Assembly (NCBI GenBank): GCA_933228675.1
Contig: OW121740.1
Location: 58,033,000 to 58,096,999, forward strand
Direction: 5' to 3'
Source: Stomorhina lunata
Taxonomy: Eukaryota; Arthropoda; Insecta; Diptera; Rhiniidae
DNA length: 64,000 bases
Shown: piece after piece, positions 36,485-63,850 of the stretch
Numbering within the stretch: the first letter of the stretch is position 1
How the letters are laid out: every line of letters starts with the position of its first letter
Notes under the pieces: generated by a model
Told to the model about the DNA's origin: nothing
Databases searched by the model: none
The model's input: the letters and a program-made list of their open reading frames with translations, nothing else
Made by a program: the position numbers and the translations under genes

Positions 36485-39400
36485 CGGAACAACTCAGTAA
36501 TACCCTATAGCAAATACATTTTTTGCTGAATCCTTGCAGATATGTATATGCAAAAATTTGTCATTTTACCGATATTTATGCATGACACTAGATATTGTGA
36601 CCCGGCATTCCCTGTGTTTTCCAACGATTCCATATCGTATGTAAAAACCCTAATATTTTCCTACTCTAAGCTGAGTTTTACTATTCAATAGTTAACAGAC
36701 TACTTGAATATACAAATTATTATGTAATATAGGGGAAAGAGTTCCCCCTGCTCCTATCCTACTTAATTTTGTCAAATCTTTGTCAAAATAGAACTACTAT
36801 TTCAAGTTTCAGAACTATAGATTTAAAAATTAAGAAGTTAAGCACAAAATAGTATTTTCTTTGTAAGGAGAAGGATCTCCCCCTGCTCTTTTCCTACCAT
36901 TTTCCTAGCAAAATTTAAAAGGAATGATAAAAACATAAGCTATACTAAGTTTTATAAATCTACCATTTATTTTGAATCATATTACGTATGATATTTTTTT
37001 TTTTCCAAAAGGAGTTAAACGCCTCCTGCTCCGATCTTTTTATTTTTTAACCAAATTTGATAAGAATGATAATATTTTAAGTGAATATCTTACCTCAATT
37101 TTTTTTTAATCTGAGTAGGGTGAACTTATTTGTATAGGAAATTTTTAAACAATTTCTTATTTTTATAGGAAATTTTTCCAAAAAATGTTATTGTTATAAG
37201 AAATTTTTAAAAATTTGTTTTTTTTTATAGGAAATTTTTCAAAAATTTCTTATTTTTATAGGACATTTTTCAAAAATTTCCTATTTTATAGGAAACTTTT
37301 CAAAAATTTCTTATTTTTATATAAATTTTTCGAAGATTTCTTATTTTTATAGGAAATTTAACAAAAATATCTTATTTTTATAGGAAATTTTTCAAAAATT
37401 TCCTATTTTTATAGGAACTTTTTTCTAGTTTTATAGGAACTTTTTCAAAAATTTCTTATTTTTCTAGGAAATTTTTCAAAAATTTCTTATTTTTATAGGA
37501 AATTTTTCAAAAATTTCTTATATTTGTAGGAAATTTTTCAAAAATTTCTTATATTTGTAGGAATTTTTTCAAAAATTTCTTATATTTGTAGGAAATTTTT
37601 CAAAAATTTCTTATATTTGTAGGAAATTTTTCAAAAATTTCTTATTTTTCTAGGAAATTTTTCAAAAATTTCCTATTATTATAGGAAATTTTTCAAAAAT
37701 TTCTTATTTTTCTAGGAAATTTTTCAAAAAATTCTTATTTTTGTAGGAAATTTTTCAAAAATTTCCTATTTTTATAGGAAATTTTTCAAAAATTTCCGAT
37801 TTTTATAGGAAATTTTTCAAAAATTTCCTATTTTTATAGGAAATTTTTCAAAAATTTCCTATTTTTATAGGAAATTTTTCAAAAATTTCCTATTTTTATA
37901 GGAAATTTTTCAAAAATTTCCTATTTTTATAGGAAATTTTTCAAAAATTTCCTATTTTTATAGGAAATTTTTCAAAAATTTCCTATTTTTATAGGAAATT
38001 TTTCAAAAATTTCCTATTTTTATAGGAAATTTTTCAAAAATTTCCTATTTTTATAGGAAATTTTTCAAAAATTTCCTAATTTTATAGGAAATTTTTCAAA
38101 AATTTCCTATTTTTATAGGAAATTTTTCAAAAATTTCCTATTTTTATAGGAAATTTTTCAAAAATTTCCTATTTTTATAGGAAATTTTTCAAAAATTTCC
38201 TATTTTTATAGGAAATTTTTCAAAAATTTCCTATTTTTATAGGAAATTTTTCAAAAATTTCCTATTTTTATAGGAAATTTTTTCTAGTTTTATAGGAACT
38301 TTTTCAAAAATTTGTTATTTTTCTAGGAAATTTTTCAAAAATTTCTTATTTTTATAGGAAATTTTTCAAAAATTTCTTATATTTGTAGGAAATTTTTCAA
38401 AAATTTCTTATATTTGTAGGAAATTTTTCAAAAATTTCTTATATTTGTAGGAAATTTTTCAAAAATTTCTTATTTTTCTAGGAAATTTTTCAAAAATTTC
38501 CTATTTTTATAGGAAATTTTTCAAAAATTTCTTATTTTTCTAGGAAATTTTTCAAAAAATTCTTATTTTTGTAGGAAATTTTTCAAAAATTTCCTATTTT
38601 TATAGGAAATTTTTCAAAAATTTCCGATTTTTATAGGAAATTTTTCAAAAATTTCCTATTTTTATAGGAAATTTTTCAAAAATTTCCTATTTTTATAGGA
38701 AATTTTTCAAAAATTTCCTATTTTTATAGGAAATTTTTCAAAAATTTCCTATTTTTATAGGAAATTTTTCAAAAATTTCCTATTTTTATAGGAAATTTTT
38801 CAAAAATTTCCTATTTTTATAGGAAATTTTTCAAAAATTTCCTATTTTTATAGGAAATTTTTCAAAAATTTCCTATTTTTATAGGAAATTTTTCAAAAAT
38901 TTCCTATTTTTATAGGAAATTTTTCAAAAATTTCCTATTTTTATAGGAAATTTTTCAAAAATTTCCTATTTTTATAGGAAATTTTTCAAAAATTTCCTAT
39001 TTTTATAGGAAATTTTTCAAAAATTTCCTATTTTTATAGGAAATTTTTCAAAAATTTCCTATTTTTATAGGAAATTTTTCAAAAATTTCCTATTTTTATA
39101 GGAAATTTTTCAAAAATTTCCTATTTTTATAGGAAATTTTTCAAAAATTTCCTATTTTTATAGGAAATTTTTCAAAAATTTCCTGTTTTTATAGGAAATT
39201 TTTCAAAAATTTCCTATTTTTATAGGAAATTTTTCAAAAATTTCCTATTTTTATAGGAAATTTTTCAAAAATTTCCTATTTTTATAGGAAATTTTTCAAA
39301 AATTTCCTATTTTTATAGGAAATTTTTCAAAAATTTCCTATTTTTATAGGAAATTTTTCAAAAATTTCCTATTTTTATAGGAAATTTTTCAAAAATTTCC

Positions 39401-41135
39401 TATTTTTATAGGAAATTTTTCAAAAATTTCCTATTTTTATAGGAAATTTTTCAAAAATTTCCTATTTTTATAGGAAATTTTTCAAAAATTTCCTATTTTT
39501 ATAGGAAATTTTTCAAAAATTTCCTATTTTTATAGGAAATTTTTCAAAAATTTCCTATTTTTATAGGAAATTTTTCAAAAATTTCCTATTTTTATAGGAA
39601 ATTTTTCAAAAATTTCCTACTTTTATAGGAAATTTTTCAAAAATTTCCTATTTTTATAGGAAATTTTTCAAAAATTTCCTATTTTTATAGGAAATTTTTC
39701 AAAAATTTCCTATTTTTATAGGAAATTTTTCAAAAATTTCCTATTTTTATAGGAAATTTTTCAAAAATTTCCTATTTTTACAGGAAATTTTTCAAAAATT
39801 TCCTATTTTTATAGGAAATTTTTCAAAAATTTCCTATTTTTATAGGAAATTTTTCAAAAATTTCCTATTTTTATAGGAAATTTTTCAAAAATTTCCTATT
39901 TTTATAGGAAATTTTTCAAAAATTTCCTATTTTTATAGGAAATTTTTCAAAAATTTCCTATTTTTATAGGAAATTTTTCAAAAATTTCCTATTTTTATAG
40001 GAAATTTTTCAAAAATTTCCTATTTTTATAGGAAATTTTTCAAAAATTTCCTATTTTTATAGGAAATTTTTCAAAAATTTCCTATTTTTATAGGAAATTT
40101 TTCAAAAATTTCCTATTTTTATAGGAAATTTTTCAAAAATTTCCTATTTTTATAGGAAATTTTTCAAAAATTTCCTATTTTTATAGGAAATTTTTCAAAA
40201 ATTTCCTATTTTTATAGGAAATTTTTCAAAAATTTCCTATTTTTATAGGAAATTTTTCAAAAATTTCCTATTTTTATAGGAAATTTTTCAAAAATTTCCT
40301 ATTTTTATAGGAAATTTTTCAAAAATTTCCTATTTTTATAGGAAATTTTTCAAAAATTTCCTATTTTTATAGGAAATTTTTCAAAAATTTCCTATTTTTA
40401 TAGGAAATTTTTCAAAAATTTCCTATTTTTATAGGAAATTTTTCAAAAATTTCCTATTTTTATAGGAAATTTTTCAAAAATTTCCTATTTTTATAGGAAA
40501 TTTTTCAAAAATTTCCTATTTTTATAGGAAATTTTTCAAAAATTTCCTATTTTTATAGGAAATTTTTCAAAAATTTCCTATTTTTATAGGAAATTTTTCA
40601 AAAATTTCCTATTTTTATAGGAAATTTTTCAAAAATTTCCTATTTTTATAGGAAATTTTTCAAAAATTTCCTATTTTTATAGGAAATTTTTATAGGAAAT
40701 TTTTCAAAAATTTCCTATTTTTATAGGAAATTTTTCAAAAATTTCCTATTTTTATAGGAAATTTTTCAAAAATTTCCTATTTTTATAGGAAATTTTTCAA
40801 AAATTTCCTATTTTTATAGGAAATTTTTCAAAAATTTCCTATTTTTATAGGAAATTTTTCAAAAATTTCCTATTTTTATGGGAAAATTTTCCAAAATTTC
40901 TTATTTTTATAGGAAATTTTTCCAAAATTTCTTATTTTTGTAGGAAATTTTTCCAAAATTTCTTATTTTTTTAGGAAATTTTTCCAAAATTTGTTATATT
41001 TATAGGAAATTTTTCCAAAATTTCTTATTTTTATAGGAAATTTTTTAACTTATATTTTAAGGAGGAGGAGCCCAGCATTTCCATACATTACAAGCATTAG
41101 CACTACCCTACACATCCTAAGCTGAAGTAGGGTAT
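36485..41135. repeat. Interspersed repeat hosting the 31 bp satellite
   Basis: Starts with ACTATAGTCGGAACAACTCA and ends TGAAGTAGGGTATAAC, resembling the ends of family A. Between 36,728 and 37,060 there are three ~140 bp internal units marked by GAGTTCCCCCTGCTCC-type boxes (about 36,738, 36,874, 37,015). A fourth box, GGAGGAGGAGCCCAGCATTT, lies beyond the satellite at 41,062. The satellite therefore sits inside this element. Confidence 0.6.
37131..41049. repeat. 31 bp hairpin satellite, ~126 units
   Basis: Each unit is an arm AGGAAATTTTT, a single C, the complementary arm AAAAATTTCCT and the spacer ATTTTTAT. The 23-base core is therefore a perfect palindrome around one base. The centre (about 38,640-40,870) is almost invariant, with isolated changes such as CCTGTTTTT at 39,182, CCTACTTTT at 39,617 and TTTACAGG at 39,778. 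Edge units are diverged (TTATATTTGTAGG, TTATTTTTCTAGG). A ~13 bp partial unit lies near 40,685. Homogeneous centre and diverged edges are what unequal crossing-over predicts. Confidence 0.95.
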
Positions 41136-42066
41136 AACAATCTGTTAGCTGCCCTTTAGAACCTAAGCACTCTGGCATCATCTTCATCTCAACATCTTGA
41201 AGATGTTCATGAAAATAACTTCACGTACGCATTTATGTTTCCCTATATCCATCTATCCATCCATCTCTGTGTTGTTTTCCTATTCCTACAATATTTTCTT
41301 TCCATATGGAAGATACACACGTACCATCAACATCTTCTTAGACTCCCACCATCACCGCATACCAAAACTCCCTACTTCTTGTGTTTAATTTAACGATACA
41401 ATAACGCTACAAGGAAAGAGCAACATTAGCAGCATGTAGCAATAACATCATCGATGTTGCTGTTGCTGCTGCCTTTCGGTTGCAAAAATACTTTATTCTA
41501 CGAGACTAAATACTCGTGTACAAGGTTAAAGTCAACCGAATGAAGTAGGAAAAATATTGTGGCAAGAACAAGAACTCGTACATATTTGTACGTTGTTTAT
41601 TCTACTTCTACTACATCTTAGTTACTTTATACCAAATTTCTAATAATCTTTCAACGTCACGTAATAATGTGAGGTTTTGTATCTTTATTTTCTCCTTGTG
41701 GCATTTTAATGTTTTCATATACGAAAAAAAAAAAATAAAATAACAAAAGTATAAAAAAAACCAAATAACGACAACTACGTTCTAGCGACAACTTCAAGAA
41801 GCTCGTGATATCTAAATAAAAGTGTATGTGAGTTTGGATTTAAAAGAAGAAAAGTGTTGGAAAATTCTCTTTAATGGAAAATTTAGTTATAAAAATTTGA
41901 TGAAAGCCTTTCGATAAAAAAAACAAGTTTTAAAGTGTTAACTGAAGTAGATTTAATGGCAGCTTTAGTAATTTTGAAAATTTCTTAATTAACCTCAGGA
42001 ATTTGAAACTCATTAGAGAGGTACTAATGCTAAGCTTATAACCTGAAATATCACAGCCTAGATAGC
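41136..42066. other. Complex AT-rich region, no gene assigned
   Basis: 41,190-41,520 is less repetitive, with ATCCATCTATCCATCCATCT and GTTGCTGTTGCTGCTGCC simple repeats. No recognisable protein. Confidence 0.35.
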
Positions 42067-42180
42067 AAGAGCAGACTACATTATCCTATTAATGTTGCCG
42101 CAATTGGGGCTCGAACCCAGGCAGGATTTAAAATTTTAGATACTACAACAATTTTTTTAAATGATAAATAAAATGTGTTG
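42067..42180 (-). ncRNA. tRNA-like B box, possible SINE remnant
   Basis: On the minus strand 42,107-42,117 reads GGTTCGAGCCC, a perfect match to the RNA polymerase III B-box consensus, within CTGCCTGGGTTCGAGCCCCA, which could form a T-arm. No cloverleaf or clear A box is visible upstream (toward 42,180), so this is not an intact tRNA. A decayed tRNA-derived SINE is possible; chance is also possible. Confidence 0.3.
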
Positions 42181-42379
42181 CATTTTTCTTTAAATTGTAT
42201 TCAAATTTTTGTTGTATCTAAATTTTTATGAATTTGATTAACTTTTTAACATCTCATGTAAAGTAATGAAAAATGGAGTTAGGTCTTTCTTTAGGGTTGC
42301 CGGAAAATTTTCGTAAAAAATCGGCATATTTTTGAAAAAAAAAACGGTATTATCGGCAGATAATGGAATTTTCAAAATT

Positions 42380-42995
42380 ATATCACAAATATAGCGGAAT
42401 ATTAAAAAACTGTTTATTGAAAATTTTCTATAAAACAAATTTCGTATTGAAAATTTTTCTTAAAGAAAAAATCATATTGAAAATTTCTCTATACAAACAT
42501 TTTTTTATTAAAAATTCTTCTAAACAAATGCGTCGAGAAAAGGTTTCCCCACCAACATTTTTTGGTTTTATCAAAAAACTATTTACAACAATAATAAATA
42601 ATTGTAATAAATTGGGATCTTAGTGCAATACACTACAGTAAAACTTTTTAATTAAATGTTTGATATCCCAAAATTTTGATAAACCTTTTGAAAAAATTGT
42701 ATATGGAAAATGTTTCTATTCAAAAAATTGTAAATGAAAAATTATACTTTACAAAAAAATTTATATAGGGACATTTTCGATAGGAAAAATTTTAAGTGAA
42801 AAATTTCACTACAGAAAAGAATTTATATATAAAATTTTTCTATAGAAAAAAATTTATATTGAAAGTTTTTAAGCGAAAAAAATTTTAAATTGAAAATTTT
42901 TCTATAGAAACAATTTTAAATGGAAAATTTGTATATAGAAAACAAATTTATATTGAAATGCTTCTACAGAAAAAAATTTATATAGCACAATTTTG
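42380..42995. repeat. Degenerate ~30 bp repeats, TTTCTATAGAAA cores
   Basis: About fifteen loose units of ATTGAAAATTTTTCTATAGA followed by AAAAAATTTATA. The TTTTCTATAGAAA core occurs at about 42,836 and 42,898. Ends against family A copy 2. Confidence 0.7.
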
Positions 42996-43002
42996 TATTA
43001 AA

Positions 43003-43790
43003 CAGGAAAGTGCTATAGTCGGTCAAGCCCGACTATACGATACCCTTCACCACTAAAGTCAAAGGTGTTTTTGTCCTGTATAGAGACAAATATTTGCTAA
43101 ATTTTGCCATCATACAAACATTTTCTCAAAACTTATGTATTTATGCTGTTTTCATCATTTGGACTGATATGAGAGCTAGGGTCAACTGTGGACGGATTAC
43201 CTCGAAATTTGGCAAATTTATTACAGTTGTTACAAAAATTATGTATGCAAAATATAAACTTAATGTTCTCATTATTTTCAGATTTACGAGCGTTTTAGTG
43301 ATTTTTGCCTCATTTAGTGCGTTTTGACAGAAGAGTTTGTATGGGAGCTATGGTCAAATGTGGACCGATTTCAACGAAATTCGGTACAGTAATTTAAGTT
43401 TACATAGTATTTGTTTAAAATTTCATGAAAAATATTTATTTTTGTAGCCAATATATCAATTGCGGGAAGTGGGACCTATGGGAGGTACCATAAGTAATGG
43501 ACCGATTTTGACGAATTTAGCCATGGTCCCATTATCAAAAAAAAAAAAAAATTATCTGTGTCAAATTTCATCAAATTATCTTTAGAATTGCGACCTGTAG
43601 TTTGATTACAAGGTTTACATGGGGGTCCAGCCAGGCAACCAGCCAGCCGTCCAGACGGACGGACTGATATCGCTAAATCGACGCAGAAAGTAATTCTAAG
43701 TCTATTGGTATACTAAAAGGCGGGTCTAAGACAAATATTTCTTTATATATATTTATAATAGCCTTTCCACCTATTCTGGTGTAGGGTATA
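43003..43790 (+). repeat. Interspersed repeat family A, copy 2
   Basis: Uninterrupted copy. It begins GGAAAGTGCTATAGTCGG, with the hairpin CGGTCAAGCCCGACTA, and ends GTGTAGGGTATA. It provides the empty-site reference for the insertion at 45,899-47,269: here the target reads GGACTGATATGAGAG. Confidence 0.85.
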
Positions 43791-45125
43791 AAAATTGTAT
43801 TTCGTTCCCAAATTTCGACTCTGTAAATTCCAATGTATCGGAATTATTAAAAACATATATCGTTTTTCAACCTCTGATTTGTAATATATGTTAAAAAAAA
43901 AAAGTGTTCAAATTTTGAGGCCAAGTTGGTCTTCGATATTATCTTAAAAATCTCCAATTTTCTATTCAAAATCTGCATACCAGAACTTTCCTATTTTTCA
44001 GGTCAAAATCGCCAAAATGACGATAAATCGGCAAATTTGGCAGACCTGATTAATGAATGTAAGCAAGAGTTAAATACATAAATGCAAAATCTCTCGTAAT
44101 TGAGTTATAAAAAGGATTTTATCAAATAAAATTTATATTTATTAGTCAAAACAATTGTTTGGATCAATTGACAAAAAAAAACCGCACCAAAAAAACTTCA
44201 ATTTTCTTATTTATTGTTGTCCACTTTATAGCTCATTTAACATTTCCCATTACAAAAAAAAAATGTTCAAAATCCCTTTACATGAAAGAAGATATGATTT
44301 ATTTATTTTACAAATTGTACTTACATCTTAAACATCTCTTAACCTATAAAGGCGATTACTTACAAATATTTATTACAAATCGATTTTTCTTATCGCACAA
44401 AATCATAAATAAATCTTGAGAATAACAATAACGACAAGACAAGACATTTGACCAAAAGTATGAGAAACTTGTTACAGGCTTGGCTATAAAACAAAAAACG
44501 AGACGAAGAAAAAATAGAAGTAATACAAAAATAACTTAAGAACCTCTTCTCCAAATAACTAACGCCTGTGACGGGCCAAAGAACCATCATTATAATCATT
44601 AATTTTAAACCATAAATTGGCGTGTTTCTAACTAACCAACGACAAGAACACAAAATTTATTTATACTTTACTAAAAATATGATCATTAACCTGATCATGA
44701 TCAATTTTAGAATCAATAATTTTCTAGGTCTAAAGAGTCAAAGCAAAAGAACAACTCAACAATTTGATGTTCACTGGGTAGCAGCAGCAGCGGCAGCAGC
44801 ATTAGTTTAACATTTTAAATAAAAAATGGATTTTTGATAAATTGAATTATTAAAATTTATTTTATATTAAATGTAATTGTTATTATTGTTGCTTTTTTAT
44901 GCTCTTATAATCATTAGATGGCCATAGGCTGAGTTTTAGCATTTTAGGGGAACTTCTTTTTAATTATTTTTCTATAGCTAGTAATTTTTAATTTGTCTAT
45001 ATAGAAAATTTGTTGAAGTCACGCTACAATTAGCAGTTTTTGTTACTTTTTTTTTTTTTTGTTATATAAATTGTATAAACCATTTTGATAAAGCCGAAAG
45101 AAACTATATCAAATAAAGTGTTAAA
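43791..45125. other. AT-rich region, no recognised gene
   Basis: A short (AGC)n-like run lies at 44,779-44,800 in an open frame without other support. No gene is called. Confidence 0.4.
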
Positions 45126-45648
45126 GTGCGTGTTTGTTTAAGAAAATCAGCCAAAAAAGTTAGCAAAAATTTTTGATTTCCTCAAAAAGTAGGCGATTGA
45201 AATCAATAAATGGTTCTCGCTATTAAATAAAATGGATGGGTTTACCTTTAAGTGACAGTCCAGTCCATTCAAAGGTCCGAAGCTTACTTAGGAAATGGTT
45301 TGCAATTTTTCTATCTAAAAAAGCGAGAAGCGGTTTCACCTTCAGAAAAAATTCTCCCTTTAGCGAGCGATTTTCTTCTGAAGTTTATACCTAGTGCGTG
45401 TTTGTTTAAGAAAATTAGCGAAAAAATTTTGATTTCCTCAAGTAGTCGCTTGAAATCAATTAATAGTTGTCGCTATTAAAAAAAATGGATGGGTTCATCT
45501 TTAAGTGATAGTGCAGTCCATTCAAAGGCCATAAGCTTACTTAGGAAATGGTTTACAATATTTTCTATCTAAAAAAGCGAGAAGCGGTTTCTCCTTCAAA
45601 AAAAAAAATGTTCCCTTTAGTGAGCGATTTTCTTCTGAAGTTTATTAT
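45126..45648. repeat. 268 bp tandem duplication
   Basis: GTGCGTGTTTGTTTAAGAAA starts both copies (45,126 and 45,394), and both end near TTTTCTTCTGAAGTTTAT. They share TTAAGTGACAGTCCAGTCCA-like and GCGAGAAGCGGTTTC blocks. Copies differ by scattered changes and small gaps. Confidence 0.9.
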
Positions 45649-45898
45649 ATCGAGTTCGAGTTTTTCGACAGGAAATTTTACTGCAAAAGAAAATCTCTAG
45701 TAACAAGTTTCTCTACAGAAGATATCTAGTTAAAGCAAGTAAGAAAGTGCTATCGATCAAGTCCGACCATACAATACCCTTTACCACTGAGGTCAAAGGT
45801 GCTATTTTTCCTGTATAAAGACAAATATTTGCTAAATTTTTCCAACATACATTTTCTCAAAACATATATATTTAAGCTGTTTTCGTTATTTGAACTTA

Positions 45899-50055: not shown

Positions 50056-51582
50056 ACCTGGTTGACCGAGCCTTGCTCGGAGCTTAATGATTAGCATTTT
50101 GAGGCACATTTTAAAGTTTTTATATATTTTATATTATAAAGTGCTAAAATAAATTGAGAGGAAAGACATTGTACAAATATTCAGTTAATTTTGAATTATT
50201 TTATTTATTTTGTCCGACCAACACATAGTTTGCATAGTTTACAGTTTAACTCATTTTGAATAATTTTGGAAATTATTCATATCAACAGAAACCTCCGTCG
50301 ACTCATGCGCAACAACTTTGCTAAAGATAATAGTAGTCTGATCAAACGCACAGTTTACGATTTAATTCATTTTGAGTAGTTTGCAGTGGCGCCACCTGAA
50401 GTTGTTCATACCATATAAGAAACCTTTGTCTGCTTATTCGTAACAACTTTGCTTATGATTATAACATGATCAAATGCACAGTTTACTATTTAATTCACTT
50501 TGAGTAATTTTCTGTGCGCCACCTGTCGGACTTTGCTCATTCCAATTCATAAACCTTCTTCGGCTTATCCGTAACAACTTTGTTGAAGATTATAGCATGA
50601 TTAAATGTACAGCATACGATTAAATTGACTTTGAGTAAATTTCAGTGGCGCCACCTGTCGAAATTTCTTCATACCAACTAAGAAACCTTCGTCGGCTCAT
50701 GTGCAACAACTTTGCTAAAGATTGTAGCATGATTAAATGTACAGATTACGATTAAATTGACTTTGAGTAAGTTTCTGTAGCGCCACCTGTCGGAAATTAT
50801 TTATACCAACTAAAAAGCCTTCGCCGGCTCATGCGCTACAACTTTGTTAAAGATCATAGCATGATTAAATGTACAGTTTACGATTTAATTAATTTTTAGT
50901 AATTTTCAGTGGCGCCATCTGTCGGAAATTAATCTTATCAACTTTAAAACCTTCGCCGGCTTATCCGCAACATCTTCGCCAAAGAGCATAACACAATCAA
51001 ATTCACAGTTTACTATTTTATAAAGAACATACATACAGACAAACATTCATTTGTTTAAAATAATACTAATTTTTCCCCCTTTTTATTCCCTAATTTCTAA
51101 AAGTTCCATATGTATATTTGGTACTTTTTTGGTGCCAATTGAATTCGGTACATTTTTTTAAAACGCATTTAACATAATGTATAATGTTCCTATTCATATA
51201 TTACTTTGGAGATGTTAAGTTATCATTTTATCCCTATTTTACCCATTTTGGCTCCAAAATCAAAAAAGTACCAAATACGTGTTTCATGTTTCTTTTACAT
51301 CTATTAATTGCAGTACAAAGTTTATTTCTATATTCCTTAGTTAAAAATATAAGAGTGGGTTAAAAAGGTACCAAAAAAACTAATTTTACCCTTCTTTACC
51401 CCCTATCGGACATAGTTTCAAAAAAGGACCAAACACCTGTCCGCTTATTTTCATAGCTGTTTAAAACGTAATCTTAATTTTGTTTCTATACCTATTACTT
51501 TAGGAGATATACCCGTCCAAAAGTCCCTTCCTACCCACTGTCCAAATTTTATCAAAATCGTTAGAGCCGTTTTCGAGATAGC

Positions 51583-51665
<83 letters not shown>
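50056..51665. repeat. ~130 bp tandem-repeat element, long copy with (AT)n tail
   Basis: Starts ACCTGGTTGACCGAGCCTTG. Units carrying GGCGCCACCTG-type boxes at about 50,388, 50,516, 50,646, 50,779 and 50,910 are 126-133 bp apart. A different section (51,080-51,500) follows with recurring TTGGTACTTTTTTG phrases, then AATCGTTAGAGCCGTTTTCG and a (AT)n run. Related to 30,446-30,960. Class unknown. Confidence 0.8.
51588..51665. repeat. (AT)n microsatellite, ~38 dinucleotides
   Basis: An uninterrupted TATATA run at the end of the preceding element. It opens an isoleucine/tyrosine frame that is not a gene. Confidence 0.97.
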
Positions 51666-52092: not shown

Positions 52093-53474
52093 ATGAGCAA
52101 ATCCTACGTGACGGACGATACATTTGTACGGATTTTGTTGTACTTAAATGTACCCCATTGTCGTTCTACACTAGATATCTTTGCATAGATTTCTGAGAAT
52201 ATTAGGCCATCGATCGTGCTATTGAATGGCATTTGTTAATTTACATACTTCTTTCGCAGGAAAAATATATTCGATTTTAAAGTGTTGTGACGGACGCTAC
52301 AAAAAATGTAAGTGACTTTTTTTTCAACGCGTTTTTCTGTAATATTCATCAAATCGGTCATAGTAATAAAAAAAAATGTAAATACATTAAAGATAGAGGA
52401 AAATCAGAGGATTACAAAACTAAATTTTATGAAATATTTTAAAGTTTCCAGTTTCACAAAAAATCCTTAAATGAACTGTTGCGGACGCTACGTAACGGAC
52501 GATACAGTTTTTACTTTTATGTTTTTAATTAGGAAAAAACTCATATTTCATATTTTTTTTGAGGATTCGTTAAATCAGTGGAAATAATGGTTTTATGAGC
52601 TCCCGAATTTTATTTCCTTTCTTTTCATGTTCGCGGTTAAAATGCGATTTTTGGGTACAATTAAATATTTCACAAAACGGCTATATACATATATTTATTT
52701 AAAATGCTCACTTCTTACATCTTATTTTTCGTCGAAAGAATACTGCGGGTAGCTGTTAGAGTGTCCCAAAAATAAAAAAAAAAATAAAATTTCAAAACCA
52801 TCAAATTTGCCCCACTGTATATTTTTTAACACCTAATATCTTAAATTTAATCTGTGGATATAGACAGTGTTATTGCTTTATTAATAAGACAGATACGTGT
52901 TTGCGAATATGTATTGTATTTAATAAATATCATTTTGTAAAAAATATATACTGTGACGGACGCTACACACTTTTGTATACATATTATTCTGTAAAATGCT
53001 ATATAAACATCTATATATTTTTAACCTAATGTAAAGCATACTATAAGTTCTCTTTACAAACTAAGTTCAATTTTCTGTCAAATTAAAAAAACTGTTTTTC
53101 TGTGACGGACGCTACATACTGTGAGCCCTTTTTTACTTGACGTTATTTATATTACTCCAATTACTTTTGATGGGGTCTTTTACATCTAATTATATAAAAT
53201 TAAGCAGACTTTGAGCCCATATTGAAACTTGACAGCAAAATGAATGTTGTGATTTTTATGAACTTTAAAAAAACCTATTATTTTAAAAAATGTATACAAA
53301 TTCGTGATGGGTGCAAATAAAGACCTGCCATTCACGAAAATACCAATCAAAAAATTGTATCCATTATATATTCTTAAGGAAAAACATATGGTAAATTTTT
53401 TCATAAACGCAAATAAGTGATTTTGACAGTTTTAAAATTTTGTCCTTAATTTAATGTTTTTCGGATTTGCCCAT
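52093..53474. mobile_element. Unclassified element with GTGACGGACGCTAC motifs
   Basis: ATGAGCAAATCC at 52,093 is matched by GGATTTGCCCAT at 53,463 in inverted orientation, a candidate 12 bp terminal repeat (one mismatch). Between them a GC-rich motif, GTGACGGACG(C/A)TACA, occurs six times in the same orientation at about 52,108, 52,287, 52,481, 52,493, 52,953 and 53,102. No transposase is visible. The pairing of the ends is tentative. Confidence 0.5.
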
Positions 53475-54650
53475 AAGAGCAACTTAGCGAAAATGTTTTT
53501 AAATTATTTTTAGAAATTTATATTTTAACCATCATAAATTCTGCGGGATTCGCGTAAAATCATTAACGAGAACGGATTTTACATTCACTAAGCTCCCTTA
53601 ATAAAACTCCAAAAAATATTTAGTGTGCGATCAACAATTTTTTTGTTTTTTTAACTCCGAAAATTAAAACTATGTATTTGAAGTTGCACACCTAATATTA
53701 AATAGGATTTATATTAAATTTAAATTCGAATAAATTTCACTTTAAAAGTGAAATTTCTACAATTCTTAACAATCCAGAATGTATCGTTTTGACCTTCCTC
53801 ACGCTTCAAGAGAATAAACCCTAAAATAAACATTAGAAAATTATCTAAAATAATTAAGAAATAATTTAGTTTTTCTAATGAATCTAACCTCTTTTTATAT
53901 CCGTAAAGATCAAGATCATTAATATTTGACTAATGATCAACCATTTGATGTTTCTAAACATTTTTTGTTACATTCTTAGCGCAAAGCAAAGAACTTTGTG
54001 ATTTTTTTTAAACATTAAGGGGAAAAACTGAAAAAAATCATTACAGTACTAACATAATATGTAATTAAAGTTCATTAACTTAATAAAGTTGATGATGATG
54101 ATAATAATAATGAAAGGCAAGATCAACAAAGTGAACAAATTTGTGAAAAGAAAAACTAACAAAGTTTGATCAAAGAAGTTGTAAGCAAAAAAGTTTGAAA
54201 TGTCTGTCTTTAGTCTTCGGGCTTGATAATAAAATGATTTTATATCTTATTTTACTTTGTCCCATTCTACATGTCTTTTACAAAAACTGAAATGCGTAAA
54301 TTTAAAAGGAGACATCAACAATAACTATGAAAAATTAAGTTATATTTTCAGAATGTCCAATAATCATTTGTTATTCAGTCATTTTGTCTGTCTGTCTTTT
54401 TAATTTATTTGTATGTCTCTTCTTATGTAAAGTGACCACAATTTGTAAAATTCTAATGATTTTTTTTTTGTCATTTTGATTTTTTTCTGTTCGCAATTAC
54501 CCTGACCTTAACATTGTCAGATCTGTTGTTTAAGTTTTTAACCCTTAACTGAACAAAATAGACCAATATTTACCCACAATTAAAGCAGTCATTTACATAC
54601 CTGCAAAGAAATAGAAAATACAAACAAATTAGTTAAGAATAATATACAAA
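53475..54650. other. AT-rich region, no recognised gene
   Basis: Simple AT-rich DNA with short runs (GATGATGATGATAATAATAA near 54,093). Nothing gene-like. Confidence 0.4.
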
Positions 54651-54659
54651 ATATTTTAT

Positions 54660-54807
54660 AGACAAGAGATTTTTAAATATTTGTTATCTAAGCGAGAGAT
54701 TTTCTTTAGAGAAACATTTCCTTAAAGCGAGAGATTTTTTATAGGAAATCATCTCTTAAAGGCGAGAGATTTACTATAAAAAAAGCATCTCTTTAAGACG
54801 AGAGATT
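54660..54807. repeat. Diverged ~43 bp repeats bordering the satellite
   Basis: Three or four units of GCGAGAGATTTTCTATAGGA followed by ATCATCTCTTTAAG. They share the TTTTCTATAG core with the satellite but have a longer spacer, so they may be the ancestral form. Confidence 0.7.
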
Positions 54808-57800
54808 CTCTATAGAAAAACATTAATTTTCTATAGAAAATCATTCCTTTTCTATAGAAAATCATTGCTTTTCTATAGAAAATCATTGCTTTTCTATAGA
54901 AAATCATTGCTTTTCTATAGAAAATCATTGCTTTTCTATAGAAAATCATTGCTTTTCTATAGAAAATTATTGCTTTTCTATAGAAAATCATTGCTTTTCT
55001 ATAGAAAATCATTGCTTTTCTATAGAAAATCATTGCTTTTCTATAGAAAATCATTGCTTTTCTATAGAAAATCATTGCTTTTCTATAGAAAATCATTGCT
55101 TTTCTATAGAAAATCATTGCTTTTCTATAGAAAATCATTGCTTTTCTATAGAAAATCATTGCTTTTCTATAGAAAATCATTGCTTTTCTATAGAAAATCA
55201 TTGCTTTTCTATAGAAAATCATTGCTTTTCTATAGAAAATCATTGCTTTTCTATAGAAAATCATTGCTTTTCTATAGAAAATCATTGCTTTTCTATAGAA
55301 AATCATTGCTTTTCTATAGAAAATCATTGCTTTTCTATAGATAATCATTGCTTTTCTATAGAAAATCATTGCTTTTCTATAGAAAATCATTGCTTTTCTA
55401 TAGAAAATCATTGCTTTTCTATAGAAAATCATTGCTTTTCTATAGAAAATCATTGCTTTTCTATAGAAAATCATTGCTTTTCTATAGAAAATCATTGCTT
55501 TTCTATAGAAAATCATTGCTTTTCTATAGAAAATCATTGCTTTTCTATAGAAAATCATTGCTTTTCTATAGAAAATCATTGCTTTTCTATAGAAAATCAT
55601 TGCTTTTCTATAGAAAATCATTGCTTTTCTATAGAAAATCATTGCTTTTCTATAGAAAATCATTCCTTTTCTATAGAAAATCATTCCTTTTCTATAGAAA
55701 ATCATTCCTTTTCTATAGAAAATCATTCCTTTTCTATAGAAAATCATTCCTTTTCTATAGAAAATCATTCCTTTTCTATAGAAAATCATAACTTTTCTAT
55801 AGAAAGTCATTCCTTTTCTATAGAAAATTATTCCTTTCTATAGAAAATCATTGCTTTTCTATAGAAAATCATTGCTTTTCTATAGAAAATCATTGCTTTT
55901 CTATAGAAAATCATTGCTTTTCTATAGAAGATCATTGCTATTCTATAGAAAATCATTCCTTTTCTATAGAAAATAATTACTTTTCTATAGAAAATCATTG
56001 CTTTTCTATAGAAAATCATTCCTTTTCTATAGAAAATCATTCCTTATCTATAAAAAATAATTCCTTTTCTATAGAAAATCATTTCTTTTCTATAGAAAAT
56101 CATGCCTTTTATATAGAAAATCATTCCTTTTCTATAGAAAATCATTCCATTTCTATAGAAAATCATTCCATTTCTATAGAAAATCATTCCTTATCTATAG
56201 AAAATCATTCCTTTTCTATAGAAAATCATTCATTTTCTATAGAAAATCATTACTTTTCTATAGAAATCATTCCTTTTCTAAAGAAAATCATTCCTTTTCT
56301 ATAGAAAATCATTCCTTTTCTATGAAAAATCATTCATTTTCTATAGAAAATCATTCCTTTTCTATTTAAAATCATTCCTTTTCTATAGAAAATCATTTCT
56401 TATCTATAGAAAATCAATCCTATTCTATAGAAAATCATTCCTTTTCTATAGAAAATCATTCCTTTTCTATAGAAAAACATTCCTTTTCTATAGAAAATCA
56501 TTCCTTTTCTATAGAAAATCATTCCTTTTCTATAGAAAATCATTCCTTTTCTATAGAAAATCATTCCTTTTCTATAGAAAATCATTCCTTTTCTATAGAA
56601 AATCATTGCTTTTCTATAGAAAATCATTGCTTTTCTATAGAAAATCATTGCTTTTCTATAGAAAATCATTGCTTTTCTATAGAAAATCATTGCTTTTCTA
56701 TAGAAAATCATTGCTTTTCTATAGAAAATCATTGCTTTTCTATAGAAAATCATTGCTTTTCTATAGAAAATCATTGCTTTTCTACAGAAAATCATTGCTT
56801 TTCTATAGAAAATCATTACTTTTCTATAGAAAATTATTGCTTTTCTATAGAAAATCATTGCTTTTCTATAGAAAATCCTTGCTTTTCTATAGAAAATCAT
56901 TGCTTTTCTATAGAAAATCATTGCTTTTCTATAGAAAATCATTCCTTTTCTATAGAAAATCATTCCTTTTCTATAGAAAATCATTCCTTTTCTATAGAAA
57001 ATCATTCCTTTTCCATAGAAAATCATTCCTTTTCTATAGAAAATCATTACTTTTCTATAGAAAATCATTCCTTTTCTATAGAAAATCATTCCTTTCTATA
57101 GAAAATCATTGCTTTTCTATAGAAAATCATTGCTTTTCTATAAAAAATCATTGCTTTTCTATAGAAAATCATTCCTTTTCTATAGAAAATAATTACTTTT
57201 CTATAGAAAATCATTGCTTTTCTATAGAAAATCATTGCTTTTCAATAGAAAATCATTCCTTTTCAATAGAAAATCATTCACTTTCTGTAGAAAATCATTC
57301 CTTTTCTATAGAAAATCATTCCTTTTCTATAGAAAATCATTCCTTTTCTATAGAAAATCATTCCTTTTCTATAGAAAATCATTCCTTTTCTATAGAAAAT
57401 CATTCCTTTTCTATAGAAAATCATTCCTTTTCTATTTAAAATCATTCCTTTTCTATAGAAAATCATTTCTTATCTATAAAAAATCAATCCTATTCTATAG
57501 AAAATCATTCCTTTTCTATAGAAAATCATTCCTTTTCTATAGAAAAACATTCCTTTTCTATAGAAAATCATTCCTTTTCTATAGAAAATCATTCCTTTTC
57601 TATAGAAAATCATTCCTTTTCTATAGAAAATCATTCCTTTTCTATAGAAAATCATTCCTTTTCTATAGAAAATCATTCCTTTTCTATAGAAAATCATTGC
57701 TTTTCTATAGAAAATCATTGCTTTTCTATAGAAAATCATTGCTTTTCTATAGAAAATCATTGCTTTTCTATAGAAAATCATTGCTTTTCTATAGAAAATC

Positions 57801-60126
57801 ATTGCTTTTCTATAGAAAATCATTGCTTTTCTATAGAAAATCATTACTTTTCTATAGAAAATTATTGCTTTTCTATAGAAAATCATTGCTTTTCTATAGA
57901 AAATCCTTGCTTTTCTATAGAAAATCATTGCTTTTCTATAGAAAATCATTGCTTTTCTATAGAAAATCATTCCTTTTCTATAGAAAATCATTCCTTTTCT
58001 ATAGAAAATCATTCCTTTTCTATAGAAAATCATTCCTTTTCTATAGAAAATCATTCCTTTTCTATAGAAAATCATTCCTTTTCTATAGAAAATCATTACT
58101 TTTCTATAGAAAATCATTCCTTTTCTATAGAAAATCATTCCTTTCTATAGAAAATCATTGCTTTTCTATAGAAAATCATTGCTTTTCTATAAAAAATCAT
58201 TGCTTTTCTATAGAAAATCATTCCTTTTCTATAGAAAATAATTACTTTTCTATAGAAAATCATTGCTTTTCTATAGAAAATCATTGCTTTTCAATAGAAA
58301 ATCATTCCTTTTCAATAGAAAATCATTCACTTTCTGTAGAAAATCATTCCTTTTCTATAGAAAATCATTCCTTTTCTATAGAAAATCATTCCTTTTCTAT
58401 AGAAAATCATTCCTTTTCTATAGAAAATCATTCCTTTTCTATAGAAAATCATTCCTTTTCTACAGAAAATCATTCCTTTTCTATAGAAAATCATTCCTTT
58501 TCTATAGAAAATCATTCCTTTTCTAGAGAAAATCATTCCTTTTCTATAGAAAATCATTCCTTTTCTATAGAAAATCATTCCTTTTCTATAGAAAATAATG
58601 CCTTTTCTATAGAAAATCATTCCTTTTCTAGAAAATCATTCCTTTTCTAGAAAATCATTTCTTTTCTATAGAAAATCATTCCTTTTCTATAGAAAATTAT
58701 TCTTTTTCTATAGAAAATTATTCTTTTTCTATAGACAATTATTCCTTTTCTATAGAAAATTATTCCTTTTCTATAGAAAATTATTCCTTTTCTATAGACA
58801 ATTATTCCTTTTCTATAGAAAATTATTCCTTTTCTATAGAAAATCATTCCTTTTCTATAGAAAATCATTCATTTTCTATGGAAAATCGTTTCTTTTCTAT
58901 AGAAAATCATTCCTTTTCTATAGAAAATCATTCCTTTTCTATAGAAAATCATTCCTTTTCTATAGAAAATCATTCCTTTTCTATAGAAAATCATTCCTTT
59001 TCTATAGAAAATCATTCTTTTCTATAGAAAATCATTCCTTTTCTATAGAAAATCATGACTTTTCTATAGAAAATCATTCCTTTTCTAGAAAATCATTCCT
59101 TTTCTAGAAAATCATTTCTTTTCTATAGAAAATCATTTCTTTTCTATAGAAAATCATTCCTTTTCTATAGAAAATTATTCTTTTTCTATAGAAAATTATT
59201 CCTTTTCTATAGAAAATTATTGCTTTTCTATAGAAAATTATTCCTTTTCTATAGAAAATTATTCCTTTTCTATAGAAAACCATTCCTTTTCTATAGAAAA
59301 TCATTCCTTTTCTATAGAAAATCATTCCTTTTCTATAGAAAATCATTCCTTTTCTATAGAAAATCATTACTTTTCTATAGAAAATCATTCCTTTTCTATA
59401 GAAAATCATTCCTTTCTATAGAAAATCATTGCTTTTCTATAGAAAATCATTGCTTTTCTATAAAAAATCATTGCTTTTCTATAGAAAATCATTCCTTTTC
59501 TATAGAAAATAATTACTTTTCTATAGAAAATCATTGCTTTTCTATAGAAAATCATTGCTTTTCAATAGAAAGTCATTCCTTTTCAATAGAAAATCATTCA
59601 CTTTCTGTAGAAAATCATTCCTTTTCTATAGAAAATCATTCCTTTTCTATAGAAAATCATTCCTTTTCTATAGAAAATCATTCCTTTTCTATAGAAAATC
59701 ATTCCTTTTCTATAGAAAATCATTCCTTTTCTATAGAAAATCATTCCTTTTCTATAGAAAATCATTCCTTTTCTATAGAAAATCATTCCTTTTCTAGAGA
59801 AAATCATTCCTTTTCTATAGAAAATCATTCCTTTTCTATAGAAAATCATTCCTTTTCTATAGAAAATCATTTCTTTTCTATAGAAAATCATTCCTTTTCT
59901 ATAGAAAATCATTCCTTTTCTATAGAAAATCATTCCTTTTCTATAGAAAATCATTCCTTTTCTATAGAAAATCATTCCTTTTCTATAGAAAATCATTCCT
60001 TTTCTATAGAAAATCATTCCTTTTCTATAGAAAATCATTCCTTTTCTAGAGAAAATCATTACTTTTCTATAGAAAATCATTCCTTTTCTATAGAAAATCA
60101 TTCCTTTTCTATAGAAAATCATTCCT
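54808..60126. repeat. 21 bp palindromic satellite, ~250 units
   Basis: The unit is the perfect palindrome TTTTCTATAGAAAA plus the spacer TCATTGC or TCATTCC. Runs of G-type and C-type spacers alternate in blocks (for example G-type 54,860-55,660, C-type 55,665-55,790). Because 21 is divisible by three and no phase contains a stop, all six frames stay open for hundreds of codons (MIFYRKA/G on one strand; LLFYRKS, FLFYRKS and SFSIENH on the other). A ~1,049 bp higher-order block is repeated. I call no gene. Confidence 0.97.
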
Positions 60127-60270
60127 TTAAGGCGAGAAATCATCACTTCATGGCGATAGCTTTTCTACACAGAAAATCATCTCTTTAAATCATAATGGCA
60201 ACAGATTTTCTATAGGAAACCATCCCTATCAGTTGAGAGATTCTTTAATAGATATCCATCTCTTTAAGGG
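60127..60270. repeat. Diverged ~43 bp repeats, right border of satellite
   Basis: TTTAAGGCGAGAAATCATCA, TGGCGATAGCTTTTCTACAC and TTGAGAGATTCTTTAATAGA phrases mirror the left border at 54,660-54,807. Confidence 0.65.
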
Positions 60271-61903
60271 AAAAGAAAAACATATAAGTACTTCTATTTC
60301 AAGTCTCATGGGTTAAGTCCCCATGAAATAAATCTGTTTATGTTTTATCGTTCCCTTATGTTTTCTTGTGTTTTTACAATTTGTACAATCACAACAGGTA
60401 TCTTCTTTTTTTTTCTCTAGTACATTTTTGTGTACACAACATCATCCAACTATTTCGACTAGGTACAACTACAACTAAAAAAACATCTTCCTTTTACTAC
60501 AACAAAAGAAAGAAAAATAAGACGAAAAAACTGCTATTAGTATATTTTTTAGAAGTCAAGTTCAGCCAATAACCCAGAGCGTGACGTGTTTTATAGTCAG
60601 TGGCATGAAGTACAAAAAGATGGCTAGGAGTACTCATGCTTGTAGTTGTAGCCAGCAAGTAGCAGCAGATGCTGTTGGCTGGTTGGTTTTGTTGCCACCA
60701 ATGTTTGTAATGATGATTTCGTTTGTAAGACTGAACTCGTAAAAAATAACAAAGTAGTGTTGATCAAAACAGAGTGAAAGGGAATAGTTGGAACGGGTTT
60801 TTGAAATATATGATTTTATAAAAATCATCAAACCCGTCAGAGGGTTAACTGTAAAAAAATTGGGATTTTTCATGTGCTACATTGTTTCTTTCTACTTATA
60901 TTTTTCGTTCCTTTTATATCATTCCACACTGTAATTCAATACCCCATCTGTGTTTAAATTCAAATTTTAATGCGAATTAAAAAAAAGAAACTATACAAAG
61001 CTTAAACTACCTACTATTGCGCAAGTGTCAAATTCAGTTACACATGCGTCTAGTACTCAATAGTAAGAACTTTTCGTTTTGTATTTCTGAGGAAATGTCT
61101 TTATTTGTCTTTAATTCTAAAAAATTATACCACAAAAACTAAGGGGCAGTCGAACAAACTCAACCTTTTAAAAATTACACTTGTCATAATGTGCTTATGG
61201 GTAGGTTTTCTATAAACATTAACTCTAGCTTATTCTCATTGAAAAGTAAAAAAAAAGAAGTAGAAATAAAGCTAAAGACACTAATTGTTAAAAAAAATAT
61301 AATTTAATATTTTTTGTTATTACGTTTTCTTTATTTAACATCAAATAAATGTAAGTTTTGATTCAAAAACTAAGTACAGAAGAGTATATACAATTTCCTT
61401 GTGTTACACATACCGTGACAGAAATATTGCCCAGTGGGAAAAAATAATATATGGCATTCAGTCTCTTCACGGGTAAATCCTATTGTTATTTGCCTAACTA
61501 TTTTTTTAGGTTTTCTATCGGAAACAAAGAAAAAAAGAGGGAACAGCAAAAGACATATTGTGCAAAATGGAAAGATTTAGTCATGAAAGATTTACCCCTC
61601 GCCTATACAAAATCATCTAATTACGCTCATTCTGAGATACCCACCTTATAAGGGGTTCCAAGGTCCCAACTTTCTTAATATTATTTTTATGTCCAAATAA
61701 AAAGTTTGTCCAGATGAAATTTTCATTCGGATTATATTGGGTTGTTGGGAACGTTATTTTTCACGGCAGAAGATTTAATTTGTATAATTAGTATTTCGTT
61801 AACTGTATTGGTGTTTGCTCTTCCATAAGGAACTTTTGGGCACCCTTGATGTAAAGCAATAATTAGCATTTTAGTCCTTTTTTACTATTCAAAAAAACAT
61901 GTA
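60271..61903. other. AT-rich region, no recognised gene
   Basis: 60,590-60,720 is more complex (AGCCAGCAAGTAGCAGCAGA phrase), with no recognisable product. No ordered repeats. Confidence 0.4.
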
Positions 61904-61962
61904 AGAAAAGCTATAGTTAGCAATGCCCGACTATATGATAATTTTCCTTACGGTCTTAAGAG
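61904..61962. repeat. Short family A-like start
   Basis: GTAAGAAAAGCTATAGTTAG followed by GCCCGACTATATGATA resembles the first ~50 bases of family A and is then replaced by other sequence. Confidence 0.5.
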
Positions 61963-61964
61963 AC

Positions 61965-62792
61965 TAGAGTGCCAATAGTGTATACGGGGAAATTTTCTTG
62001 AAGGTATACGTTTCGAGCCAACCCCCAGGTTTGATCGAAATGCTAAGAAAATAATCTTTTGAAAATTTTAGGTCAATCGGATGGGGGAAAGCCTGCCCAT
62101 GGCCCGCCCAAAATTTGCAAAATACCTGATTATTTACTTTGATTGTAAATGACTTAATTAATACTTTGTAAGGCATGATTTACAATTCTATGGCCTGTAA
62201 GTACTAAATAGCTGAGTTTCTTCAAAATGTTATCAAATTTACATTTTTTTTCATATTAGAAAATTTTTAGGTCGGTTCCAAAAATCATTTTTTGATTTTT
62301 GTCTTAAATTTTATTCAATAAATGTTACAAATAATAAATTATCGTTTCAGGTTCTTAAAAAAACAAATTAGAGAATAAAACACAGAAAAAATGGTGTCGA
62401 TATCTTGAACCGTTTCGCCGTACCTACGATTTGAAATCTTAGGATTTTTAGAAAATGTAATTTTTTGGTCATAATTTGATTATATGATTGTTAAATTGTA
62501 TCTAAGTTCAATTTTAATAAAGGTCTGTGGAGAATTAACATTATAAAAGATCAACATTTTTTCCCGAGGTCAAAGGTCAAAATTAGTTATTTTAGATTTC
62601 CATAGCAAAATAGTGGAATATTAAAAATATATTAATGAATTATAATCCAAATGCAAAAAAGTATAAATTTTTATAAAACTTCAGTATTTGTTTATTAAAA
62701 TATTTTAAAAATTTTCAAGGGATTATTTTTTTAGCATTTCGAACAAATCTGGGGGGTTGGCCGCATACAAATCCCAACTTACTGGCACTCTA
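61965..62792. mobile_element. ~830 bp element with ~85 bp inverted ends
   Basis: The left end begins AGAGTGCCAATAGTG and continues through GAGCCAACCCCCAGGTTTGA and CGAAATGCTAA. The right end is the inverted counterpart, with TTAGCATTTCGAACAAATCT, GGGGGGTTGGC and CTGGCACTCT. The interior has no transposase. Part of it (62,340-62,480) resembles 35,020-35,110. Confidence 0.7.
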
Positions 62793-62804
62793 ATTTACAC
62801 TATG

Positions 62805-63850
62805 TTTTTTCAAAATTTGAGAATTTTCAATTGAAAATGAGAAATATTCAATTAAAATTGAGAAATTTGAAATTGAAATTAAGACTTTTCAATAGAAATT
62901 GAGAAATATTCAATTGAAATTGAGAATTTTCAGTTGAAAATGAGAAATTTTCAATTGAAATTGAGAAATTTTCAATTGAAATTGAGAATTTTTTGAAAAT
63001 GAAAATTTGTAAATTGAAATTGAGAAAATCCCAATTGGAAATGAGAAATTTTCAATTGAAATTGAGAATTTTTCAATTGAAATTGAGAAAAGCCCAATTG
63101 AAAATGAGGTTGATTTTTTTAATTTAAATTGAGAAATTTTCAATTGGAATTGAGAAATTTTCAACTGAAAATGAGAAATTTTCAATTGAAAATGAGAAAT
63201 TTTCAATAGAAAATGAGAAATTTTCAATTGAAAATGAGACATTTTAATGAGAATCTTTAAGAATTTTAGAATTGAAATTGAGAAAACCTAAATTGAAAAT
63301 GAGGTTGAAATTCCACTTGGGGTGTTCTCAATTTCAATTGAAAAATTCTCAATTTAAATTTAAAATTTCTCAATTTAAATTTAAAATTTCTGAATTTCAA
63401 TTGAAAATTTCTCAATTTCAATTGAAAATTTCTCATTTTCAATTGAAAACTTCTCAATTTCAATTAAAAAATTTAACCTCATTTTCAATTGTGCTTTTCT
63501 CAATTTCAATTGAAAAATTCTCAATTTTAATTTAAAAATTCTCAATTTCAATTGAAAATTTCTCATTTTCAATTGGGCTTTTCTCAATTTCAATTCAAAA
63601 ATTCTCAATTTTAATTGAAAATTTCTCAATTTCAACTGAATGTTTCTCATTTCCAATTAGGGTTTTCTCAATTTTAATTGAAAATTTCTCAGTTTTAATT
63701 GAAAATTCTCAATTTCAATTGAAAATTACTCAATTTCAAATGAAAATTCTCAATTTCAATTGAAAATTTCTCATTTTCAATTGAAAATTTTAAATTTCAA
63801 TTGAAAATTTCTCAATTTCAATTGAATATTTCTCAATTTCAATTGAAAAT
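62805..63850. repeat. Second 21 bp palindromic satellite, two facing halves
   Basis: The unit has the core palindrome TTTTCAATTGAAAA plus a GAGAAA-type spacer, 21 bp in total. Units in 62,805-63,280 read TTCAATTGAAAATGAGAAA. Units in 63,330-63,850 read the complement (TTTCTCAATTTCAATTGAAA). Variant blocks also match in mirror order: AAAATGAGGTT at 63,101 against AACCTCATTTT at 63,475, and CCCAATTGG at about 63,030 against CCAATTAGGG at about 63,653. The array is thus a large inverted repeat centred near 63,290-63,345. Open frames (QLKISHF, FSISIE phrases) are by-products. Confidence 0.9.

Follow-up and report, generated by a model that had tools for sequence, protein, structure and literature searches.

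Three short-unit tandem arrays in a Stomorhina lunata contig: palindromic units, predicted curvature and a likely origin from a stock of local repeats

Introduction

A stretch of 64,000 bp from the rhiniid fly Stomorhina lunata (assembly GCA_933228675.1, contig OW121740.1, positions 58,033,000 to 58,096,999 of the forward strand; hereafter the window, with position 1 at its first nucleotide) carries three tandem arrays of short units: array A with a 21-bp unit, array B with a 31-bp unit, and array C with another 21-bp unit. The original prediction described them as three unrelated satellites sharing one design, a hairpin unit with helically phased A/T tracts, and proposed that what is copied or selected may be local DNA structure rather than sequence. 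Do the arrays share such a design, or did they grow as tandem repeats ordinarily do? Our analysis indicates that they are likely ordinary young satellite or minisatellite arrays, born from a stock of palindromic repeats. A common, selected design of the three arrays is not supported, because the palindrome of array A appears to be inherited, the predicted bend of arrays A and C is not clearly above that expected from unit period and composition, and no robust conservation of shape was found.

Long head-to-tail runs of near-identical units, as expected of satellites, were reported by Tandem Repeats Finder (TRF) for array A (54,809–60,128, 254 copies, 95% matches), array B (37,127–41,045, 126.6 copies, 94% matches), and array C (62,817–63,850, 49.4 copies, 76% matches). 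Their parts and the related older repeats are listed in Table 1.

Table 1. Arrays and related older repeats in the window
Feature	Position	Strand	Description
Array B	37131–41045	+	31-bp unit, 27-bp palindrome ATAGGAAATTTTTCAAAAATTTCCTAT + TTTT; 129 monomers (121 full length)
Old degenerate 31-bp repeat	42690–42980	+	TTTCTATAGAAA core present twice without mismatch, at 42837 and 42899; 42,415–42,980 predicted to bend at background level
Left remnant of older ~35-bp repeat	54677–54823	+	GCGAGAGATTTTCTATAG...CATCTCTTTAAG type; TRF row 54692–54823, period 35; 4 copies spaced 35, 35, 36
Array A	54827–60128	+	21-bp unit TTTTCTATAGAAAATCATT[C/G]C; 254 monomers; 14-bp perfect palindrome + 7-bp spacer
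Duplicated 18-monomer run in array A	57030–57407	+	Same order again ~1,049 bp on (58,079); end approximate (18 x 21)
Right boundary of array A	60105–60140	+	Last 21-bp unit (...TCATTCC) runs on into the longer repeat's extra segment TTTAAGGCGAGA...
Right remnant of longer repeat, diverged	60130–60277	+	Copies at 60163, 60206, 60242; 61–78% identical to reference (family D1)
Array C, left block	62817–63310	+	21-bp unit TTGAGAAATTTTCAATTGAAA, forward
Array C, right block	63325–63850	-	21-bp unit TTGAGAAATTTTCAATTGAAA, reversed

Array A and the older ~35-bp repeat

Wrap-around alignment to the consensus resolved array A into its 254 monomers, of which 243 were full length without indels and 41 were distinct. 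The unit consists of TTTTCTATAGAAAA followed by the spacer; in the consensus, TTTTCTATAGAAAATCATTCC, a T4 tract occupies positions 1–4 and an A4 tract positions 11–14, so that tract centres lie 10 and then 11 bp apart, exactly as had been predicted. Of the 243 full-length monomers, 141 had C and 83 had G at spacer position 20. Two internal runs were found to be duplicated: 18 monomers recur 50 monomers further on, and 13 monomers recur 61 monomers further on. Long open reading frames across array A are taken as a by-product of its period, since 21 is divisible by three. The exact unit patterns of arrays A and B gave 0 matches in viral contigs.

Repeats of the ~35-bp type flank array A on both sides in the same orientation, and for this array the description of the satellites as unrelated therefore fails. 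Joined to TTTAAGGCGAGAGA, for which the left-hand copies supply the final two bases, TTTTCTATAGAAAATCATTCC makes 35 bp, and removal of 14 bp, about TTTAAGGCGAGAGA, from the 35-bp unit gives the 21-bp unit, with TTT present at both break sites. At its right edge the array continues without a break into the segment that the longer repeat has in addition (Table 1). The consensus of the diverged flanks is itself a near-perfect palindrome. We infer that array A arose in place from this palindromic longer repeat, and its palindrome appears to have come from the local parent. In the proposed course, a unit of ~35 bp would have lost 14 bp (about TTTAAGGCGAGAGA), and the resulting 21-bp unit would have spread in place to 254 copies by slippage and unequal exchange.

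Array B and its edges

Alignment to the consensus gave 24 distinct forms among the monomers of array B. Divided into 12 bins, the first and last of which each take in one partial monomer, the array had mean differences per monomer of 5.5 and 3.3 at the left end and of 1.6 and 3.4 at the right end. Bins 3 and 6–10 were near uniform (0–0.18), and bins 4–5 formed an inner diverged patch (1.9 and 1.1). Unit position 21 was C in 94 and T in 27 of the 121 full-length monomers, and a 22-bp variant recurred at 37.4 and 38.3 kb. The three A/T tracts predicted for this unit were present by hand count on the consensus, with centres at 6.5, 15.5 and 25.5 of 31 and spacings of 9, 10 and 12; the mean spacing of ~10.3 given for them is mere arithmetic (31/3) and does not serve as evidence. 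Array B probably grew and homogenised at 31 bp in the same way as array A.

The word AACTTAT was found on both sides of array B (37,123–37,129 and 41,047–41,053), and this 7-bp direct match at the edges might mark the array as an inserted element. However, among 1000 pairs of equal length drawn at random from the background, 11% matched over as great a length, and the longest inverted match between the flanks was 4 bp; we consider insertion extremely unlikely. Comparison of flanks revealed no convincing target-site duplication around array A, the A cluster, array B or array C.

Array C as two opposed blocks

The third array was predicted as a single array of 21-bp units. The unit length was confirmed, but the array proved to be two 21-bp blocks of opposite orientation, switching near 63,310–63,325. 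The left block (62,823–63,303) aligned to the reverse complement of 63,369–63,850, and inverted arms of 253 nt and 170 nt within the array were 85% and 86% complementary. The two blocks form a small, foldback-like pair; a collinear inverted duplication was not supported, since the order of monomers was common to the two arms no more than expected by chance (P 0.178 of 500).

Long inverted arms of short tandem repeats, the feature of foldback-type elements, were thus found in array C, the arms being ~480 bp long and built of 21-bp repeats. It might be a foldback-type non-autonomous transposon, and such elements might seed the satellites; a precedent is Tetris of Drosophila virilis, where the inner repeats of a foldback element gave rise to satellite arrays (PMC4079207). 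Against this, the ~30-bp flanks contained no target-site duplication (longest common word 4 bp, P 0.97; a decayed one is possible), the arms were alike in monomer order only at the chance level given above, and we saw no unique terminal sequence; no search was made for a transposase of its own. A transposon origin of array C is, in our estimate, unlikely, and we treat it simply as two opposed 21-bp arrays.

Palindromic units and their common core

Palindrome arm length was compared with that of 1000 shuffled units, and hairpin energy with that of 200 shuffles. Array A had arms of 7 bp (P 0.008; hairpin energy P 0.005), and array B arms of 13 bp plus one centre base, equalled in 0 of 1000 shuffles (hairpin energy P 0). 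The arms of array C were 6 bp long (P 0.114), with a hairpin energy P of 0.02. The predicted plan of palindrome plus spacer, with hairpin scores above shuffled controls, was therefore borne out for arrays A and B; it was weaker for array C, which exceeded its shuffles by energy only.

The same tests were applied to 14 distinct units picked by hand from 58 overlapping TRF rows (15 rows in the palindrome test, with the G variant of array A). This sample leaves out the 155-bp, 132-bp and (TA)39 arrays, among others; it includes two units with only about two copies and several with a common core, which are not independent. Arm length reached P<=0.05 in 4 of the 14 units and hairpin energy in 7, two of these at exactly 0.05.

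The core of the array A unit, TTTCTATAGAAA, was found with at most one mismatch 36 times outside the three arrays, as against 0.8 +/- 0.8 times in 20 dinucleotide shuffles. Nearly half of these matches (17 of 36) lay in 12 listed tandem-repeat stretches with units of 21, 23, 31, 35 and 38 bp. Two of the 36, at 13,912 and 32,324, had identical surroundings and are taken to be two copies of one transposon. The DNA looks strewn with old degenerate A/T-rich repeats, many of them probably built round a palindrome of the TTTC-TATA-GAAA type. Diverged 38-bp repeats (AGACCAGCAACATTGTTTC...) with TTTC-N4-GAAA cores were observed at 22583–24192 and 20010–20219; the predicted bend of the 38-bp stretch 22,776–23,807 was at or below background.

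Kinship of arrays A and B appeared strong under plain shuffles (0/300; P 0.0055 of 2000 under different gap costs) and is not claimed here, since a null that keeps the palindrome gave P 0.083. Under the same null, P was 0.060 for A–C and 0.030 for B–C, and of the 18 pairs examined that included one of the three arrays, 13 had P<0.05, uncorrected. Taken over all these pairs, the result leans towards a common repeat stock, to which arrays B and C may belong.

Predicted curvature

Curvature was predicted by the De Santis, Bolshoy and AA wedge models in four settings, with tilt signs calibrated so that A4T4 bends more than T4A4 in all four. Bend is given as the mean predicted over 63 bp, and background as 50 1-kb blocks of this window only. 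Across the four settings, array A was predicted to bend by 69–108 degrees, array B by 116–149 degrees, and the two blocks of array C by 53–87 degrees. The background mean was 30–36 degrees and its top block 39–48 degrees, so that arrays A and B and both blocks of array C lay above the largest of the 50 blocks in all four settings.

In arrays with 21-bp and 31-bp units, bends accumulate from one unit to the next because these lengths are near whole helix turns. Random units of 76% A+T placed in tandem bent most near 21 and 31 bp, and lengthening the unit of array A by 3 or 5 bp reduced its predicted bend from 78–106 to 13–38 degrees. Because arrays with short periods near whole turns accumulate bend, tandem arrays of shuffled units are the proper control. 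Against these, P was at most 0.001 for array B, 0.048–0.21 for array A, 0.02–0.38 for its G variant, and 0.05–0.36 for array C; against shuffles keeping the palindrome, it was 0.19–0.33, 0.11–0.49 and 0.15–0.38 for the last three, respectively. Tested on consensus units and arrays, the prediction of curvature above controls thus held for all three arrays relative to the window, and for array B only, in every model, relative to shuffled-unit arrays. In these models the bend of arrays A and C does not clearly go beyond period and composition, and array B is a good candidate for truly curved DNA. The curvature of arrays A and C would follow from their A/T-rich 21-bp units, since 21 bp is two helix turns and each unit's bend adds to the next; array B would be bent beyond that.

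Only 3 of the 14 units (array B, a 35-bp unit and a 17-bp unit) had P<=0.05 in the shuffled-unit test in all three models, and the absolute bends of the 35-bp and 17-bp units were 27–62 degrees. Four more units (three of 31 bp and one of 21 bp) with a period within 0.5 bp of 10.5k were not beyond their shuffles, a result at odds with a simple phase rule. The older arrays at 19.6, 22.8, 30.2 and 42.4 kb had predicted bends of 23–48 degrees, near the background means; the top values, 48.4 for the 23-bp array and 48.1 for the 31-bp array at 30.2 kb, slightly exceeded the top background block in one setting each. With these older core-bearing arrays near background, what array A shares with them is chiefly the palindrome and not the bend. 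The flank copies of array A were predicted to be less bent than the array in two of the three models, and in the Bolshoy model the right flank copies (31.5) were below array A (69.3).

One might still suppose a helical-phase filter on the birth of satellites, by which, from one palindromic stock with units of 23, 31, 35 and 38 bp, those that expand to hundreds of copies are the perfect palindromes at whole helix turns. Bent, hairpin-forming repeats would then be more prone to slippage, exchange or packing into nucleosomes, and the 14-bp loss would have turned an out-of-phase 35-bp repeat into the in-phase 21-bp unit of array A before its expansion. We consider such a filter quite unlikely. If it held throughout the genome, it would tell on physical grounds which repeats turn into satellites; that is more than the present data can show.

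Conservation of shape

For conservation of shape, the null consisted of 300 versions of each array, in which each distinct monomer kept its number of substitutions at random positions. The fraction of intact pairs was 0.957 in array B (null 0.954), 0.829 in its ends (null 0.841), 0.752 in the left block of array C (null 0.714, P 0.073), and 0.760 in the right block (null 0.737, P 0.17). For curvature, P ranged from 0.02 to 0.57, and no array was low in all three models; the lowest values were obtained for array B (0.023), array A (0.060) and the ends of array B (0.067) in the De Santis model, and for the right block of array C (0.073) in the Bolshoy model. Compensatory changes numbered 0 in array A, 1 in array B (0 among its full-length monomers) and 1 in the left block of array C; the test is weak for arrays A and B because the null expects fewer than one. 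The right block of array C had 3 against 0.7 in the null (P 0.013), by reading one or two events. No robust sign of conserved curvature or pairing emerges from the substitutions. The idea that structure is copied or selected in place of sequence was not supported: pairs and curvature were not clearly above random placement in array B, its edges or the blocks of array C, and in array A, where intact pairs were in excess (discussed below), spacer position 20 dominated the substitutions.

The design argument holds that DNA shape, a phased bend plus a dyad, was selected or preferentially copied, for example for heterochromatin or centromere packing, and that the three arrays converged on it. All three arrays stand above the 50 background blocks, array B stands above every control, and palindromic units are common among the 14 chosen, as counted above. 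This has to be set against the failure of arrays A and C to exceed shuffled-unit arrays in every model, the background-like bends of the older core-bearing arrays, the small number of units passing in all three models, two of them with lesser bends, and the lack of robust conservation of bend and pairing. We regard selection for shape as very unlikely.

A bias of process, not of function, is a different matter: hairpin-forming units may slip or template-switch more, and so expand, with the bend following from unit length. The commonest units of arrays A and B are perfect palindromes, imperfect copies being found in the 35-bp flanks of array A and in the T21 variant of array B; palindromic units occur among the arrays tested for hairpins, and the three compensatory cells in the right block of array C also fit. 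On the other side, the 38-bp repeats reached 27 copies with arms of only 4 bp (P 0.711; hairpin energy P 0.05), the sample is small and its units are tied by their common core, and a perfect copy in array A is unsurprising since its diverged flank consensus is already near perfect. We hold such a bias possible, though doubtful.

Origin of the arrays

Ordinary growth of young arrays from a palindromic stock is the likely explanation of these observations. Array A has duplicated runs without diverged edges, and array B has diverged ends with an inner patch; the block duplications in the former and the divergence pattern in the latter are what unequal exchange would be expected to leave. The sequence itself shows the make-up of the arrays, the older repeat on either side of array A with the run-on at its right edge, the duplicated segments within array A, the divergence towards the edges of array B and the excess of the core in the background. 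That the unit was shortened from 35 to 21 bp and not lengthened, that slippage and unequal exchange drove the growth, and that the arrays lack function is what we infer from these patterns.

Several results weigh against this reading. Array A shows no divergence towards either end, a hint that its expansion is younger or differently bounded, and to its right the copies of the longer repeat follow one another at irregular distances (last spacings 58, 43 and 36). In the Bolshoy model the left 35-bp flank is as bent as array A (68.5 vs 69.3), and the bend of the 35-bp TRF unit was beyond its own shuffles in all three models. The bend of array B was above that of the two shuffle controls in each model (P at most 0.0025). 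Its T21 variant, which by reading lies chiefly at the ends and in the inner patch, is a less perfect palindrome than the commonest unit; a preference for units that bend or form hairpins could lie behind the C21 majority. Finally, intact pairs in array A, with position 20 unmasked, exceeded the null (0.973 vs 0.925, 0/300). This excess was dropped as evidence of conservation because substitutions in array A fall mostly at spacer position 20 (C/G), and with that position masked, 29 of the 48 substitutions in distinct haplotypes lay in the palindrome (expected share 0.70, P 0.10).

In array A the birth of a satellite can apparently still be read from the sequence, with the older repeat on both sides, a likely 14-bp loss, and the expanded product between. 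For curvature in such arrays in general, comparison with shuffled-unit tandem arrays is needed before it is read as design.

Other features of the window

The DNA of the window is probably eukaryotic and from a calyptrate fly. A LINE-like frame at 15.5–16.0 kb had 8 protein matches, the three named ones being from Lucilia cuprina (54–67% identity over 48–68% of the query), and was adjoined by a 43-bp tandem repeat (15309–15428, 2.8 copies) with G+C content above its surroundings. A transposase fragment on the minus strand (2855–3358) matched uncharacterised proteins of Musca autumnalis (up to 92% over ~40% of the length); among the 120 listed of its 1511 matches, many were from spiders, including DD41D or Tc3 transposase in Trichonephila clavipes. 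Two copies of a Tc1/mariner-like transposase were found, at 14017–14971 (split over two overlapping frames) and at 32562–33386, the latter with 550 database relatives at E<=0.001.

Two longer tandem repeats were present: a 155-bp repeat (7625–8523, 5.9 copies), near nucleosome length and with a predicted bend of 39–54 degrees, a little above background, and a 132-bp repeat (50268–51018, 5.7 copies) with a (TA)39 run downstream (51588–51665). Scans of the window with Rfam (gathering thresholds) and for tRNA genes gave no match.

Comparison with known systems

In literature searches the matches for the TTTCTATAGAAA string, judged by title, concerned only bacterial polysaccharides and a tumour suppressor; nothing was found on foldback elements with 31 bp or on calyptrate minisatellites, and, by title, nothing on such repeats among calliphorid satellites and helical-period minisatellites. 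None of these searches proves absence from print.

Curvature from A-T tracts, and dyad or inverted repeats, have been reviewed for insect satellites (PMC8122249). As here, these consist of tandem units with predicted curvature and palindromes, but most units are reported to be nucleosome-sized or 5–10 bp long, against 21 and 31 bp in the arrays described here. The dyad–centromere idea invoked in the original prediction was tested for non-B DNA at D. melanogaster centromeres, where dyad density was found above control only at the Y centromere (PMC9070824).

Array C invites closer comparison. Tetris and the TIR-220 satellite of D. virilis likewise have tandem repeats in inverted arms and a local repeat that expanded where it stood to form a satellite; the repeats of Tetris are, however, ~220 bp long, with target-site duplications of 8–10 bp and distinct flanking domains, none of which was seen for array C (PMC4079207). 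Galileo also carries tandem repeats inside long inverted terminal repeats, for which multiplied protein-binding sites are a possible function, but these are the ends of a transposon with a P-superfamily transposase, and no such ends were seen for array C (PMC3688188). The macro-dyad satellite arrays of Tribolium madens share with array C the opposed blocks of one satellite; their element is ~110 bp long and their symmetries extend over tens of kilobases, whereas array C covers ~1 kb (PMC13081366).

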